This document shows positions 11,377 through 22,222 of a stretch of DNA of 37,327 nucleotides, piece after piece. Positions within the stretch are counted from its first letter, which is position 1; each line of letters opens with the position of its first letter. The DNA is from Frigoribacterium sp. GTDB taxonomy: Bacteria; Actinomycetota; Actinomycetes; Actinomycetales; Microbacteriaceae. The stretch is from contig JANYIZ010000135.1 of NCBI GenBank assembly GCA_025408445.1, positions 1 to 37,327 on the forward strand, given 5' to 3'. Under the pieces are notes generated by a model. The model worked only from the letters and a program-made list of their open reading frames with translations, was not told the DNA's origin and did not search any database. Position numbers and translations under genes: made by a program.

Positions 11377-12606
11377 TCAACCCTCCCGGTGGGTGATGGA
11401 GAACCAGGTGAGGATGCTGTATAGCCAGACGACACCCAGAACAAGTGTCAACAGCACGATATGCAGCCACGGCGGCGGGGCAAGCCATCCGATAAGAAGC
11501 GCGACCCCGGCCGCCACCCCCAGGGCCGCCGACGCCGGACGATAGATTCGCGCAAGCTCACGCCAGTCGGCGAGCGAGGTCGCGACCAGGACAAGGGCAA
11601 GGGCTCCCACCGCCACTGACAGCGACAGAACCATGGCCTGGGGTGGCGAAGCATGGCCTCCCGAAGCTTTTTCGATCATGCTGACCATAACCCCACCGGT
11701 CGCGGCGATCGTCAGTGTCACCAGGAAGTGCCCGACCAGCCACCGCGACAAGGCTCCACGATCTGCAGCTACCCGGCGACCTCCCACGAAGTCGAAATAG
11801 GTCCACCAGTATGCGAATCCGATCCCCAGCCCCAACACGCCGGTGACGACAGCGACCGGCGTGCGGTCGGCATCCGCGATGCCGTTGACGACACCGACGA
11901 CTACCTCCCCCAGAACGATGATGGTGAACAGGTCGAAGCGCTCGATCATCGATTCGCTCGCGTTAGCCCTGGGGGCCCCGGGTGCCCTGTCTCGCAGCTG
12001 GAGAACCGACATGCCAGCTAGCCAGAAGACAATGAGGATTGCCCAGACCGCCAGGCGTGGCCCGTCTGGCAGAAGGGCGCTAGCGCCAACAGCCGTGGCC
12101 GAGCCCAGGATGCCGATGAGGTACGGCGTCGTTGCCGAGCGAAAAGCCGGGTCGTCCTGACGACGCACTGAGTACCAGAGCCAGCCGAGGAGGAACAGGT
12201 ACGCGCTATAGACGGTGGCGAAAGCCGGCCCGTCACCCGAAGTGGCTTCGCCAGTGAATACTGCGAGTATCACCAGCACGCCCATTTGGACGAAGACATA
12301 GAACCGGGTCCGCGCATCGGACCGACCATGCAGGTCGTGGTAGACGGCCCCATTGATCCAGGCGAACCAGATCAGCCCGAACACGATGGCGAACCGACCC
12401 GCCCCCGCCCACGTCACGTCCCCCGCAAGATGGTGTGCGGCCTGGGAGACGACGACGACGTAGACGAGGTCGTAGAAGAGCTCGAGAAAGCTGACATCCC
12501 GCCCCTCGATGCCATCGCCGTGGGCTCGAGGCGGCTGCCAAAAGTGACGGCGCAACGCTGCAGCGGATGACCAGGATCGGCGCGCGCTTTTCTGTGGGTC
12601 CGGCAT
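11377..12606 (-). CDS. Low-temperature-requirement A (LtrA) family membrane protein
   Basis: The 409-residue product has about ten membrane segments and the LtrA landmark FLELFYDLVYVVVVSQAAHHL near residue 40, followed by IWFAWINGAVYHD and a later IERFDLFTIIVLGEVV. These blocks define the LtrA family, named from Listeria; the biochemical role is not established. AGGAG lies five bases before the ATG. It is transcribed away from the serine recombinase gene, and the 309-bp gap between the two holds both 5' regions. Confidence 0.9.
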   Translation of the reverse strand: MPDPQKSARRSWSSAAALRRHFWQPPRAHGDGIEGRDVSFLELFYDLVYVVVVSQAAHHLAGDVTWAGAGRFAIVFGLIWFAWINGAVYHDLHGRSDARTRFYVFVQMGVLVILAVFTGEATSGDGPAFATVYSAYLFLLGWLWYSVRRQDDPAFRSATTPYLIGILGSATAVGASALLPDGPRLAVWAILIVFWLAGMSVLQLRDRAPGAPRANASESMIERFDLFTIIVLGEVVVGVVNGIADADRTPVAVVTGVLGLGIGFAYWWTYFDFVGGRRVAADRGALSRWLVGHFLVTLTIAATGGVMVSMIEKASGGHASPPQAMVLSLSVAVGALALVLVATSLADWRELARIYRPASAALGVAAGVALLIGWLAPPPWLHIVLLTLVLGVVWLYSILTWFSITHREG

Positions 12607-16748: not shown

Positions 16749-18156
16749 GGGTCACGTCCCGTGGATTGGTGTAATTCTCGGTAGCTGAGCGTCGCGTTGT
16801 CGACGTGGTGAGCCATCGTGCGACGGTCAGTGAGAACCGATCAAAGAACTCACTTAGGGACACAACTCACGATGGCTCTAGTCCAGTCTGCCCCTGCTCG
16901 AACTTCTCGCTCTACTGAAGCTCACCGACGTCTCCGTCCGGATCCGTTCCGCAACCGAATCTCTGTACGAGGAGCTGATCGAGGCGGAAGCGACTGCGTT
17001 CATCGGCGCCGCTCCGTTCGAACGCTCGAATGACCGAACCTCTCAGCGCAATAGGGCCCGCCCGCGGACCTTGACGACCACCGCGGGAGACCTGAACCTG
17101 CGGATCCCGAAGCTGTGAGCCGGGTCATTCTTCCCGGCATTATTGGAGCGCCGCCGCCGGGTCGACCAGGCCCTCTACGCGATCGTGATGGAGGCCTACC
17201 TGCACGGGGTCTCGACCCGGAAAGTCGACGATCTGCTGAAAGCACTCGGCGCCGATACCGGGATCTCCAAATCAGACGTGTCCCGGATCTGCGCGGATTT
17301 AGATCACGAGGTCGGCGCGTTCAGGGATCGGGACCTGTCGGCGATGGGCTACCCGTATGTGTTCCTCGACGCGACCTACTGCAAAGCACGGGTGGACCAC
17401 CGGGTGGTGTCCCAGGCAGTCGTCATCGCGTTCGGTGTTGCCGCCGACGGGCGCCGCGAGGTCCTCGGCTTCGACGTCGGCGACAGCGAGAACGAGGCCT
17501 TCTGGACCGGGTTCCTCCGCTCGCTGAAGGCCCGCGGCGTCGGTGGGGTGAAGCTCGTCATCTCCGACGCCCACACCGGGCTGAAGAAAACCATCGGGGT
17601 GGTCTTCCAAGGCGCCGCCTGGCAGAGACGCCGAGTGCATTTCTTGCGCAACGTGCTCTCTATCATCCCCCGCGCTTCCCAGGAGATGGGCGCCTCCATC
17701 ATCCACACGATCTTCGCCGAACCCGACGCGGAACATGTCAAAGCCCAGTTCTAGGAGGTCGCCCGGATGCTGGCCAAGTGGCATCCGAAGGTCGCGCAGA
17801 TGCTGCACGACGCTCGGGCCGACATCCACGCGTTGACCGGCTTCCCGACCAAACACTGGCGCCAGATTTGGAGCACCAACCCGATGGAACGAGTGAACAA
17901 GGAGATCAAACGCCGCACCGACGTCGTCGGCGTGTTCCCCAACCCCGCAGCCCTGCTCCGCCTCGCCGGCGCAGTCCTCGTCGAGCAACACGACGAATGG
18001 GAAGCCGCCGACCGCCGCTACCTCTCCGAAGCCTCCATGGCCGCGTTAGCAGTCTTGGAGGCCCCCGCCGCCGCTAAGAACCGGACACCAGCTGCGGACA
18101 TGGACCTGAGATACATGCGAAACCACCTTGAAAGAAGGTGTTGCTTCGATCAATAG
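16749..18156 (+). mobile_element. Degenerate IS256-family insertion sequence
   Basis: The element comprises a candidate left end (GGGTCACGTCCCGTGG at 16749) and a transposase pseudogene from 16872 to 18156. No inverted copy of the left end is found downstream, so the right end seems lost or has diverged. The transposase carries three lesions, so the element cannot move by itself. Confidence 0.7.
16872..18156 (+). pseudogene. IS256-family transposase, inactivated
   Basis: Starting with MALVQSA at 16872, the original frame is recovered only after removing one C from the CCCC run at 16891-16894. The product then reads LLELLALLKLTDVSV and DLNLRIPKL, is stopped by TGA at 17116-17118, resumes AGSFFPALLERRRRVDQAL, VSTRKVDDLLKALG, YVFLDATYCKARV (first catalytic Asp), KLVISDAHTGLKKTI (second Asp) and WQRRRVHFLRNVL, is stopped again by TAG at 17752-17754, and continues VARMLAKWHPKVAQML to IWSTNPMERVNKEIKRRTDVVGVFPN (catalytic Glu). 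These are the mutator/IS256 (DDE) blocks in order. One frameshift and two nonsense codons make it a clear pseudogene. The last 30 residues look unlike family C-termini. Confidence 0.9.
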
Positions 18157-19260: not shown

Positions 19261-19405
19261 CCCGCCAGCCTAAAGCGTGACGACCGGCGAGAATGGCACC
19301 AAAAACAGCATCGCCCGGGGAGCCGATCCGGTGATTCCTGAGAAACTGCCGCGTGGCCACAGCTTCCCGTTCGAGCACGTCACAACCAGCCATTATTGTG
19401 AAGCC

Positions 19406-20092
19406 GTGACGAAGACCCTGGTGATTGACAGTCCGGTGCGCGTGAATGCGCCAACGTCGCGACGTGCTTTTGCGGTGATGCGCGTTCTCGTCGGCCTTCT
19501 GGTGCTTGCGGCGCTCGTCACCCAGATCACCGCCGACCTGCTCCACGACTCCTTCACCCCGGGCGAGTACTTCAGCTATTTCACCATCGAGTCGAGCATG
19601 ATGAACGTCGTTGTGCTGCTCGTCGGAGGCGCGATTGCCTGGCGGTGGGACCGCGACACCGAACTGTTCACGAGCGTGCGGGTCGCCATCCTGTCGTACG
19701 CCGTTATCACCGGGCTGGTGTACAACGTGCTGCTGCGCAACATTCCGGGTGACGGCGGCTATGAGCCACCTCGCTGGTGTAACGAGGTTATGCACGTGTG
19801 GGTGCCGGTTTTCATTCTGCTCGACTGGCTGCTCGCTCCAGGCCGCGCCCAGGTGCCGTGGAAGCGACTGTGGCTGGTGATCTCCTTTCCCCTCGCCTGG
19901 CTTGCTTTCACGATGATCCGGGGCGCGATCACGCTCTGGTATCCCTATCCATTCCTCGAGCCGGCCGGCCCCGGCGGCATCCCGAGTCTTCTCGTCTACG
20001 TCGTCGGAATCGCGGCCTTCATCATTATCGTCGCGTCGGCCGCGATCGGCCTCGCCCGTCTCACAGCCAGGCGCGAGGTCGTCGCTCCCTGA
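19406..20092 (+). CDS. Pr6Pr family membrane protein (copy 1)
   Basis: Start GTG 19406 is preferred because it gives a short soluble lead before the first membrane segment; an upstream in-frame ATG at 19277 is possible but its sequence is not conserved-looking. The roughly 228-residue protein has about six membrane helices and the family blocks FTPGEYFSYFTIESSMMNVV, CNEVMHVWVPVFILLDWLL and WLAFTMIRGAITLWYPYPFL. Pr6Pr (FAR-17a/AIG1-like) proteins are integral membrane proteins; relatives in animals hydrolyse fatty-acid esters of hydroxy fatty acids through Thr and His. The Thr in YFTIES and the His in MHVWVP are the candidate equivalents. A second, divergent copy lies at 21512-22222. Confidence 0.85.
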   Translation: MTKTLVIDSPVRVNAPTSRRAFAVMRVLVGLLVLAALVTQITADLLHDSFTPGEYFSYFTIESSMMNVVVLLVGGAIAWRWDRDTELFTSVRVAILSYAVITGLVYNVLLRNIPGDGGYEPPRWCNEVMHVWVPVFILLDWLLAPGRAQVPWKRLWLVISFPLAWLAFTMIRGAITLWYPYPFLEPAGPGGIPSLLVYVVGIAAFIIIVASAAIGLARLTARREVVAP

Positions 20093-20117
20093 GGAACGGG
20101 TCGCTCGGCCCGCGGGG

Positions 20118-20171
20118 TTCCGAGTACGGTGGCCGTTCCGAGTACGGTGGCCGTTCCGAGTACAGTGGCGG
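20118..20171. repeat. 18-bp tandem repeat x3 upstream of amine oxidase
   Basis: TTCCGAGTACGGTGGCCG at 20118-20135 is repeated exactly at 20136-20153 and with two changes at 20154-20171. The array fills the 83-bp gap between the Pr6Pr stop and the amine-oxidase ATG. Its last copy ends in the GGCGGTGAG that serves as ribosome binding site. Confidence 0.9.
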
Positions 20172-20175
20172 TGAG

Positions 20176-21573
20176 ATGTCGTTCAGTCGCCGTAGTTTCC
20201 TACTCGGGGCAGGGTCAGGTCTTTCCCTGCTGGTGTTAACGGCGTGCACGGATGAACCACCCCGTCCCACGAAGTCCTCGACGCCATCCCCCACCCCCTC
20301 GCAGACGGTCCCACGGCCGTCGGGAATCGAGCGAAGCGGGTGGTCGTCCGACCCCTTCGCTCGCGGGGCCCAGAGTTTCCTGGCGCCGGGCGCCACCCCC
20401 CAGCATCGGGATGATCTCGCCAAGCCGGTCGGCGGGAGGGTCTTCTTCGCCGGGGAAGCCACCTCTGCAGATCTGGCTGGCACCGTTCTTGGTGCCCAGC
20501 AATCGGGTGCCCGCGCCGCGGCCGAGGTGCTCGACGTTGTGAGGACCGGGGAAAAGATCGCGGTGATCGGAGCCGGTGCTGCGGGGGCGGAAGCTGCCCG
20601 GGCGCTCTTTCGGCGCGGATTCGACGTGGTCGTTCTCGAGGCCAGGGATCGCGTGGGTGGGCGCATCGACACCCGTACCCCCAAGTCGTGGCCCCTTGGC
20701 GTTGAGCTCGGCGCGTGGAGGCTCGGAAAGGTGACGGACGAGCCGTTGCTCGCGCGCCTCGCGTCCCTCGGGATCGCGACGAACCCACTCGCCGGTCTGC
20801 TCGCCGCGGGGATCGACGGCCACGCGGCCGACAACACTGTGGGCGCCCAGGCGCTGGCCACAGCTCGGACCTGGGCCGAGGCGCGGTTGGTCGATCCGAG
20901 CCTGAGTGCAGCCCTCGACGGCTCGGGTGCCACAGCCGGGGCGGCCGGGGCGGCGGTCGAGGGACTCTCCGATACCGGCCTCCTGAATGCGTCGCTCGCC
21001 TCACTCGCTGGAGTCACCGGGGCCAGTGCCTCGGAACTCTCCACCTGGTATGGGCTCGCTGACCTGCCGGCGCGCGATCGAATGGTCACTGGCGGATTTT
21101 CCGGCCTCATCCGCGACAGTCTTGACGGGGTGCGGGTATCTCTGTCGACCGCCGTGCTCGGCGTGTCTTACAGCGCTTCAGCCGTGAGTCTCAAACTCGG
21201 TACAGGCGAATCTCTCACCGTCGACCGGGTCGTGGTGACGGTGCCGCTCGGCGTACTCAAAAAGAATGCGGTGGCATTCGACCCGCTGCTGCCCTTCTCC
21301 CATCGCACCGCGATCAGCGCACTCGGCATGGGATCGGTCGAGACTGTCTGGCTACGCTTCGATAAGCCATTCTGGTCGACGGATGCCGCTGTCTGGAGCA
21401 TCGTCGGCAGCGACAGCGACATCACCGACTGGGTGAACCTGCAGGCAGTGACGGGAGAGCCGGTGCTCGTCGGTATTGTGGGCGGCAAAGCGGCAAGGCG
21501 AGTGGGGAAACTCAGCGACGACGAGCTGGTCGAAGCCGTGCGGACGGCCCTCGCCCCGTTCGCACAGGCCTGA
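20176..21573 (+). CDS. Exported flavin amine oxidase-like lipoprotein, permuted order
   Basis: Start ATG 20176 gives 465 residues. Residues 1-24 are a Tat plus lipoprotein signal: SRRSFLLGAG and lipobox LTAC with Cys24. After a Ser/Thr/Pro linker come WSSDPFARGAQSF (W56) and VFFAGEATSADLAGTVLG (FAGEAT at 91-96), which normally form the C-terminal end of flavin amine oxidases, and then GARAAAEVL. Only after these come the N-terminal-type FAD motif KIAVIGAGAAGAEAARAL (from K127) and VVLEARDRVGGRID. The body continues through VVVTVPLGVLKK and ALGMGSVETVWLRFDKPFW, and stops at ALAPFAQA, just where the WSSDPF/FAGEAT block would normally follow. Thus the order is permuted, or an extra N-terminal copy exists and the C-terminal one is lost. 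The 3' end overlaps the opposite Pr6Pr gene by 62 bp. Substrate unknown. Confidence 0.85.
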   Translation: MSFSRRSFLLGAGSGLSLLVLTACTDEPPRPTKSSTPSPTPSQTVPRPSGIERSGWSSDPFARGAQSFLAPGATPQHRDDLAKPVGGRVFFAGEATSADLAGTVLGAQQSGARAAAEVLDVVRTGEKIAVIGAGAAGAEAARALFRRGFDVVVLEARDRVGGRIDTRTPKSWPLGVELGAWRLGKVTDEPLLARLASLGIATNPLAGLLAAGIDGHAADNTVGAQALATARTWAEARLVDPSLSAALDGSGATAGAAGAAVEGLSDTGLLNASLASLAGVTGASASELSTWYGLADLPARDRMVTGGFSGLIRDSLDGVRVSLSTAVLGVSYSASAVSLKLGTGESLTVDRVVVTVPLGVLKKNAVAFDPLLPFSHRTAISALGMGSVETVWLRFDKPFWSTDAAVWSIVGSDSDITDWVNLQAVTGEPVLVGIVGGKAARRVGKLSDDELVEAVRTALAPFAQA

Positions 21574-22222
21574 GCACCGAACGCTCGGCCCAGCGCTCAG
21601 CAAGCGGCGTGGTGCGGCTCACTGCCACGAGAGCGCCTGAGATACCCCCGAAGAGAACAACCGCGATCGACGCGAAGAAGAAGAACTGGCCCGCATTCGC
21701 CAGCTGTGCCGGGTCGAGGAAGAAGTAGGGGTACCAGCCGACGATGGGCCCTCGCGCGAGCGTGACCAGTCCCCAGCCGGTCATGAAGACGAGTACAAAC
21801 GCGATGCTTCGCCAGGGCGACGTACCCCGGCCGGGCCCGATGATCCAGTCGAGTACGGCGACCGCGGGAAGCACGAAATGCAGCACGACATCGGACCACG
21901 GCACATCGATGCGGAATCCGCGCTCACCCGACTGCTCGATGATCAGGGCGAAGATGATCCCGCACGAGACGGTCAGGCTCAACACGGTGACCCGGGCCAG
22001 ATCCAACCAGACGGCGTCATCCTGCCCACGCAGAGCAACGACTGCCGCGATTAGTGTGACGACCAGGAACAGGATGCTGCTCTGGATCGTGAGATAGGCG
22101 AAGAAGTTGCCAGGGGTGAATGTCGCCGAACCGAGCCCCCAGAGGAATCGCGAGACGAGCGCCATCAGGCAGGCGGCTGCCATGAGCAGCCGCAGGGCGC
22201 CGAAGGTCGCCCGTACCTTCAC
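21512..22222 (-). CDS. Pr6Pr family membrane protein (copy 2)
   Basis: A 236-residue paralogue of the protein at 19406-20092, with GTG start. It shares FTPGNFFAYLTIQSSILFLV, SDVVLHFVLPAVAVLDWIIG and LVTLARGPIVGWYPYFFLDP in the same order, with about six membrane helices. The conserved Thr (YLTIQS) and His (VLHFVLP) are again present. The last about 30 residues (ERWAERSVLRPVRTGRG... to RRR) are basic and run antisense into the amine oxidase gene, so the natural C-terminus may have been changed by a rearrangement. Sequence identity with copy 1 is modest, so the duplication is old or the copies were acquired separately. Confidence 0.85.
   Translation of the reverse strand: MKVRATFGALRLLMAAACLMALVSRFLWGLGSATFTPGNFFAYLTIQSSILFLVVTLIAAVVALRGQDDAVWLDLARVTVLSLTVSCGIIFALIIEQSGERGFRIDVPWSDVVLHFVLPAVAVLDWIIGPGRGTSPWRSIAFVLVFMTGWGLVTLARGPIVGWYPYFFLDPAQLANAGQFFFFASIAVVLFGGISGALVAVSRTTPLAERWAERSVLRPVRTGRGPSARLRPARRR

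Follow-up and report, generated by a model that had tools for sequence, protein, structure and literature searches.

The window, which is the whole stretch of 37,327 nucleotides analysed here, contains an ORF at 20176–21573 on the forward strand that encodes a putative permuted flavin amine oxidase-like lipoprotein of 465 aa. Residues 1–24 (20176–20247) form a twin-arginine (Tat-type) signal with a lipobox leading to Cys24, and residues 25–44 (20248–20307) form a Pro/Thr/Ser-rich tether, for which model confidence is mostly low. Residues 45–120 (20308–20535), delimited by PF01593 and LSD2 matches, comprise the transposed ‘C-terminal’ block of the FAD domain, with W56, FAGEAT and the closing helix; the block includes Gln66 (20371–20373), which the LSD2 alignment and the family table place where LSD2 and the usual-order relatives have a Tyr. 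A linker of residues 121–125 (20536–20550) bridges what were once the C-terminal helix and the first strand. Residues 126–461 (20551–21558), delimited in the same way, comprise the Rossmann start, the substrate domain and the last helix, which stand in front in the usual order; within them Thr390 (21343–21345) occupies the place of the flavin-side lysine. The WSSDPFARG, FAGEAT and GAGAAG (Rossmann) motifs start at residues 56, 91 and 132, respectively.

Downstream and tail-to-tail, on the reverse strand, lies a gene for a Pr6Pr family membrane protein (21512–22222; NF038065, E 4.2e-29), with which the permuted gene shares the 62-bp antisense overlap (21512–21573) reported in the preliminary description. 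Upstream, 19277–20092 on the forward strand encodes a second, divergent Pr6Pr family membrane protein (NF038065, E 2.6e-28), so that divergent Pr6Pr genes stand on both sides. Directly before the start codon (20117–20175) there is an 18-bp forward-strand repeat in 2.9 copies (20117–20169), with TACAGT at 20161–20166 in the last copy. TACAGTGGCGGTGAG, included in this last copy, also precedes the ATG with small changes in loci L021–L025, and not in L027 and L029; it is perhaps the −10 element of a leaderless transcript. Elsewhere in the window, 11377–12606 on the reverse strand encodes an LtrA (low temperature requirement A) family protein (PF06772). The ORF at 17143–17754 (forward strand) has a partial-length match to the Mutator-family transposase PF00872 and the ORF at 17767–18156 (forward strand) looks like the remainder of it, so that 17143–18156 is apparently a broken insertion sequence.

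In the usual linear order of PF01593 the Rossmann start comes first and the FAGE block last, while in the window protein the block, which makes up about the last 75 residues of the usual order, lies at residues 45–120 and the start at 126. Searched separately, as the preliminary description had proposed, block and core each matched PF01593, in swapped order. Residues 51–124, scanned alone, gave a single match, of profile positions 376–443 (of 443) to residues 52–119 (E 5.2e-15), and residues 125–465, scanned alone, matched profile positions 6–363 at residues 140–461 (E 3.6e-41). The match of the whole protein, at 192.1 bits with a curated cut-off of 19.8, was split in two swapped pieces. A phmmer search against PDB sequences likewise aligned LSD2 chain positions 337–685 with residues 126–453 and positions 697–773 with residues 42–118. 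A second copy of the block was absent from the whole window in a six-frame profile scan (pieces of at least 15 aa), where the next best match had an E of 0.58. The split PF01593 and LSD2 matches and the window scan bear out the earlier claim that the block precedes the Rossmann motif with no C-terminal copy. Judged by its sequence, the window protein is a PF01593 homologue, yet not an ordinary member of the family.

Relatives were collected from near genomes and from a scan of the whole of GTDB r220, of whose 357 relatives the best 80 were kept (79 distinct loci); the whole-genome samples are from Actinomycetota, and other phyla were covered by the GTDB scan, with the same best 80 of 357 relatives. 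Two separate profiles, run on all loci, detected block and core together in 136 distinct ORFs, 108 in the rotated and 28 in the usual order. Homologues with the block at both the N- and the C-terminus, which the preliminary description had suggested seeking, numbered zero among these 136, and the best second-block score was 2.2 bits. Within loci L001–L099 a permuted ORF is present in 93 loci (88 distinct), the block profile match is N-terminal in each, and the distance from the residue-456 column to the end is 8–51 aa, or 0 in the contig-cut L099. The block is N-terminal in all 79 GTDB-scan loci, among them L094, whose gene is divided between frames, and L099, which its contig end cuts short.

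The permuted gene was found across block, junction and core in 13 of 59 other near genomes. A junction alignment gave a one-stretch match over the permuted junction in 11 of 396 genomes of the phylum and 21 of 296 of the class; both counts include the window's genome, five genomes are common to both, and a further class genome (G482) is cut by a contig edge. Usual-order genes appeared in this search mostly as partial, one-sided matches; a few matches extended across a Tat signal. Judged by record titles, Lacisediminihabitans, Frigoribacterium, Cryobacterium, Microbacterium, Clavibacter, Rathayibacter and further Microbacteriaceae have the rotated form, as do Actinobacteria bacterium IMCC26207 and actinobacterial MAGs. 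Outside Microbacteriaceae it also extends to additional families of the class and to other Actinomycetota classes. The earlier, tentative mention of similar N-terminal segments in related actinobacterial proteins agrees with these relatives. The rotated form was not found (E 1e-20) in 23 genomes that belong to the same order but to other families. An artefact of a single genome was rejected, since 13 of the 59 other near genomes and the 79 GTDB-scan loci carry the permuted gene or a block on the N-terminal side.

Eleven plasmid records were matched, none with a single place covering at least 80% of the query; of the records opened, L151, L191, L192 and L193 follow the usual order, and L152 carries a fragment. 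The L152 fragment (1998–2261), a Skermanella rosea plasmid CDS (WP_203099291.1, 87 aa), encodes hardly anything besides the C-terminal block, and a weak piece of the Rossmann side lies in a different frame; it resembles the remnant of a usual-order gene. In L094 (3953–5406, Naasia aerilata) and L109 (1273–2418, genome G403) the permuted genes are split in two frames, by decay or by sequencing error. The permuted genes of L071 and L099, on contigs labelled as a Bifidobacterium breve MAG, are nearest to IMCC26207 in the tree, and these labels look wrong.

The start of the window protein bears the mark of a Tat-exported lipoprotein (R5 R6 ... LTAC24). Across 88 distinct homologues, the rounded conservation is 98% for R5, 99% for R6 and 98% for C24, which confirms the twin-arginine and lipobox signal first recognized in the preliminary description. 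In the wider set, twin arginines are present in 107 of the 108 permuted ORFs, and 99 of these 108 combine them with a lipobox-like pattern; the other nine are L041, L094 and L135, together with six from the deep group L137–L143. The same kind of start is found in seven of the 28 usual-order relatives, L191 included, which suggests that exported lipoproteins are older than the permutation. Given the twin-arginine start and, in most members, the lipobox, the protein probably crosses the membrane already folded and carrying FAD, and stays anchored on its outer side.

Structure prediction, also proposed in the preliminary description, gave confident models for two distant members of the family. 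The AlphaFold2 model of the window protein, built from 41 sequences, all permuted, has a pLDDT of 89.2 and a pTM of 0.86, with residues 1–40 below 50 and the successive tens of residues of the block at 84–98. The model of the deep member L093, from 22 sequences, again permuted only, has a pLDDT of 87.2 and a pTM of 0.85; in its block, residues 51–70 have a mean pLDDT of 78 and the remainder 86–96. A Foldseek search against the PDB returned LSD2 first, followed by LSD1 and MAO-type enzymes; the top match spans about 365 columns with a TM-score of 0.64 by query length, in a sequential alignment that is blind to the place of the block. All 108 permuted ORFs carry the FAD-binding motifs GxGxxG, GGR and [AS]GE. 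From sequence and models, the protein most likely folds like the usual enzyme but with its ends relocated, and it would bind FAD. In four pairwise comparisons dN/dS was 0.12–0.21 for the whole gene and 0.07–0.15 for the block, lower in the block than in the core each time, and the estimates are rough in the three comparisons with dS above 1.2. Selection is purifying, and strongest in the moved block.

All 21 permuted members displayed are cut at the same loop. Their homology stops just past the final helix of the substrate domain, at the point from which usual-order relatives continue into the block; the block starts shortly before the conserved Trp, usually with a VPxP-like stretch, and the former C-terminal helix and the former first Rossmann strand are connected via a few residues. 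The permutation appears to be old, because members of other actinobacterial classes have the same cut, and its conservation in many actinobacteria looks like that of an old working design, not of a broken gene. In the proposed mechanism, the break would have fallen in the loop that connects the substrate domain's last helix to the returning segment of the FAD domain, and a short linker of a few residues would have tied the old C-terminal helix to the old first Rossmann strand. The origin that we favour is a gene duplication in a common ancestor, followed by loss of the outer segments. A remote ancestor may have had block copies at both ends. A tandem pair of usual-order genes in the f22 and g52 genomes was considered as a surviving intermediate and dropped: some junction matches there (query 40–141 or 16–141) cross the start of the second gene, but the apparent block was judged a chance match to its Tat signal, and the ORFs are about 1 kb apart.

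The number of origins was addressed with a careful tree of 61 rows (33 permuted and 28 usual-order). It recovered a main permuted group of 25 rows (support 99/95) and, apart from it, a second permuted group of six rows from the f119, f112 and f116 genomes (96/86), with L108 and L110 unplaced. Unconstrained trees need four order changes, of which two are forced by starred branches, and a single change was found in none of 200 bootstrap trees (5–95% range, 3–5). The separate group and these counts speak for segments that were permuted more than once in Actinomycetota, each time at the same structurally favoured loop, and the free trees leave room for multiple origins or reversion as possible histories. 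On the other hand, constraining all permuted rows to a single clade lowers the log-likelihood by 6.64 units, which the AU test does not reject (p-AU 0.355), the breakpoint is common to the 21 members displayed, and the usual-order sampling is biased toward relatives that permuted profiles can find. We regard repeated origin as rather unlikely; the rotation is probably one ancient event, although the free trees lean the opposite way and the sampling is biased.

Beyond the rotation noted earlier, two catalytic signature positions are altered in the window protein. Functional amine oxidases have a lysine that is hydrogen-bonded via water to the flavin N5, and an active-site tyrosine; the window protein has Thr390 and Gln66 instead. 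In the phmmer alignment, the lysine within GIIEKIALQF of LSD2 corresponds to Thr390 and the tyrosine within IQMAYSF to Gln66, whose position we take to be that of LSD1 Tyr761. In the lysine column, K is present in 27 of 28 usual-order relatives (R in one) and in 16 of 17 deep permuted members (R in one; L099 has no letter). The Microbacteriaceae group of 90 rows, a few of which are labelled only Actinomycetales, retains K in 21, all Cryobacterium; the 69 remaining rows have no K (T 35, S 8, V 8, A 5, L 4, R 4, Q 3, M 1 and C 1). The tyrosine column has Y in 28 of 28 usual-order and 18 of 18 deep permuted rows, and in four of 89 rows of the Microbacteriaceae group, three of the four being Cryobacterium. 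A quick tree of 126 rows requires four changes at the lysine position and three at the tyrosine position. Lysine and tyrosine are kept in both usual-order and deep permuted relatives; therefore, the permutation preceded the loss of the signature residues. The permutation would then have arisen in a catalytically intact enzyme with the flavin-side Lys and Tyr, and the Lys would have been lost later in Microbacteriaceae except Cryobacterium, in the lineage of the window protein included.

In MAO A the equivalent lysine, Lys305, is described as key for O2 reactivity: K305S lowers kcat about 100-fold, K305M retains anaerobic reduction by substrate with impaired H2O2 production, and K305Q equals the wild type (PMC8009472). 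Since the K305Q enzyme is fully active, dehydrogenase behaviour is not proven by the loss of Lys alone. Going by the residues at these positions, the window protein most likely acts as a flavin dehydrogenase that reacts poorly with O2 and uses a changed substrate, as opposed to a classical H2O2-forming amine oxidase. The loss of both flavin-side signature residues in most Microbacteriaceae members might instead mark a decayed or purely structural flavoprotein, a pseudoenzyme; the low whole-gene dN/dS, the FAD motifs in every permuted ORF and the invariance of W400, N421 and G427 in alignment A1 (41 sequences) all argue against this, and we consider it improbable.

A Pr6Pr gene lies tail-to-tail downstream of the permuted gene in 70 of the 79 loci; in 62 the two are within 150 bp and in 33 they overlap (stop codons excluded). 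Because this arrangement is usual, the 62-bp overlap is explained by it, and it loses the value as a sign of rearrangement that the preliminary description had given it. In L066 the Pr6Pr gene is on the same strand as the permuted gene. Pr6Pr is absent from the flank in eight of the 79 loci, namely five deep GTDB-scan loci, two of Microbacterium and that of VKM Ac-2855; two of the eight, L067 and L099, end at or inside the permuted gene and are uninformative. A profile that picks up each of the 71 known positives in the 79 loci detected no Pr6Pr in the larger flanks of other deep lineages. The downstream Pr6Pr is conserved across Microbacteriaceae, and close counterparts of the upstream one (66–85% identity) are present, within the reach of the available flanks, in L021, L022 and L023 of the 79 loci.

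Thr45 and His115 of Pr6Pr are invariant in all 66 aligned neighbours. By analogy, they could be the counterparts of T47 and H131, the residues of ADTRP reported for its FAHFA-hydrolase activity (PMC8123165). The two Pr6Pr proteins of the window match FAR-17a/AIG1 weakly, below the curated cut-off (E 6.3e-5 and 0.021), and the literature search found no papers on Pr6Pr. A speculative and, in our view, unlikely reading is that in Microbacteriaceae the permuted non-oxidase flavoprotein and Pr6Pr, which may be a membrane Thr/His hydrolase akin to FAR-17a/AIG1, form a two-gene unit on the outer face of the membrane that acts on a lipid-linked substrate. The conserved adjacency may simply have been inherited vertically within a single family.

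In the standard textbook route, a permutation arises by way of a duplicated intermediate. A truncated protein, whose ancestor had the block at both ends and lost the C-terminal copy recently in a rearrangement with the next gene, as the preliminary description had offered in the alternative, would draw on this route and on the 62-bp overlap, but is highly improbable: no relative examined has both copies, the window holds no block remnant, tail-to-tail abutment or overlap is the norm of the family, and deep members with no Pr6Pr neighbour end at the same place. The permutation reading of the same description is supported by the 108 distinct rotated members, none with a second block, and by the confident fold prediction. 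We propose that the gene probably encodes a natural circular permutant of a PF01593 enzyme of the LSD/PAO/MAO-like kind, with the usual fold, new ends, export and altered chemistry.

Among the matches listed in the literature search, a permuted flavin amine oxidase (MAO/LSD/polyamine oxidase fold) is unreported, and a term search of the main text of ‘The tree of life of polyamine oxidases’ returned no word starting with ‘permut’ (PMC7576179). In a junction-profile search of the PDB, the best stretch spanned the permuted junction in none of the 60 sequences displayed (of 688), all being one-sided. An old and widespread permutation in one superfamily would provide a test of how chain ends can move with folding, FAD binding and export kept; the later loss of the flavin-side lysine is a natural oxidase-to-dehydrogenase experiment, and the new termini hint at engineering sites in amine oxidases.

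The PF01593 family (LSD1/LSD2, spermine and polyamine oxidases, MAO) provides the best PDB matches by sequence and by fold, and the window protein has all of its segments, including the Rossmann GxGxxG, GGR and the FAGE block. It differs from this family in its rotated order, in being a probable exported lipoprotein, and in having Thr390 and Gln66 for Lys and Tyr. Close usual-order relatives include the FAD-dependent oxidoreductase of a Haloarcula plasmid (WP_324760952.1, L151) and a protein of a Synechocystis plasmid (WP_223211231.1, L191). The latter shares the twin-arginine and lipobox-like start of the permuted form, yet both differ from the window protein in their C-terminal block and retained Lys and Tyr. 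Circularly permuted FMN-bind domains have been described from AlphaFold models in multi-flavinylated extracytosolic flavoproteins (PMC11334425). As described there, they resemble the present case as a natural permutation in extracytosolic flavoproteins, and they differ from it in involving another domain, with covalent attachment of FMN.
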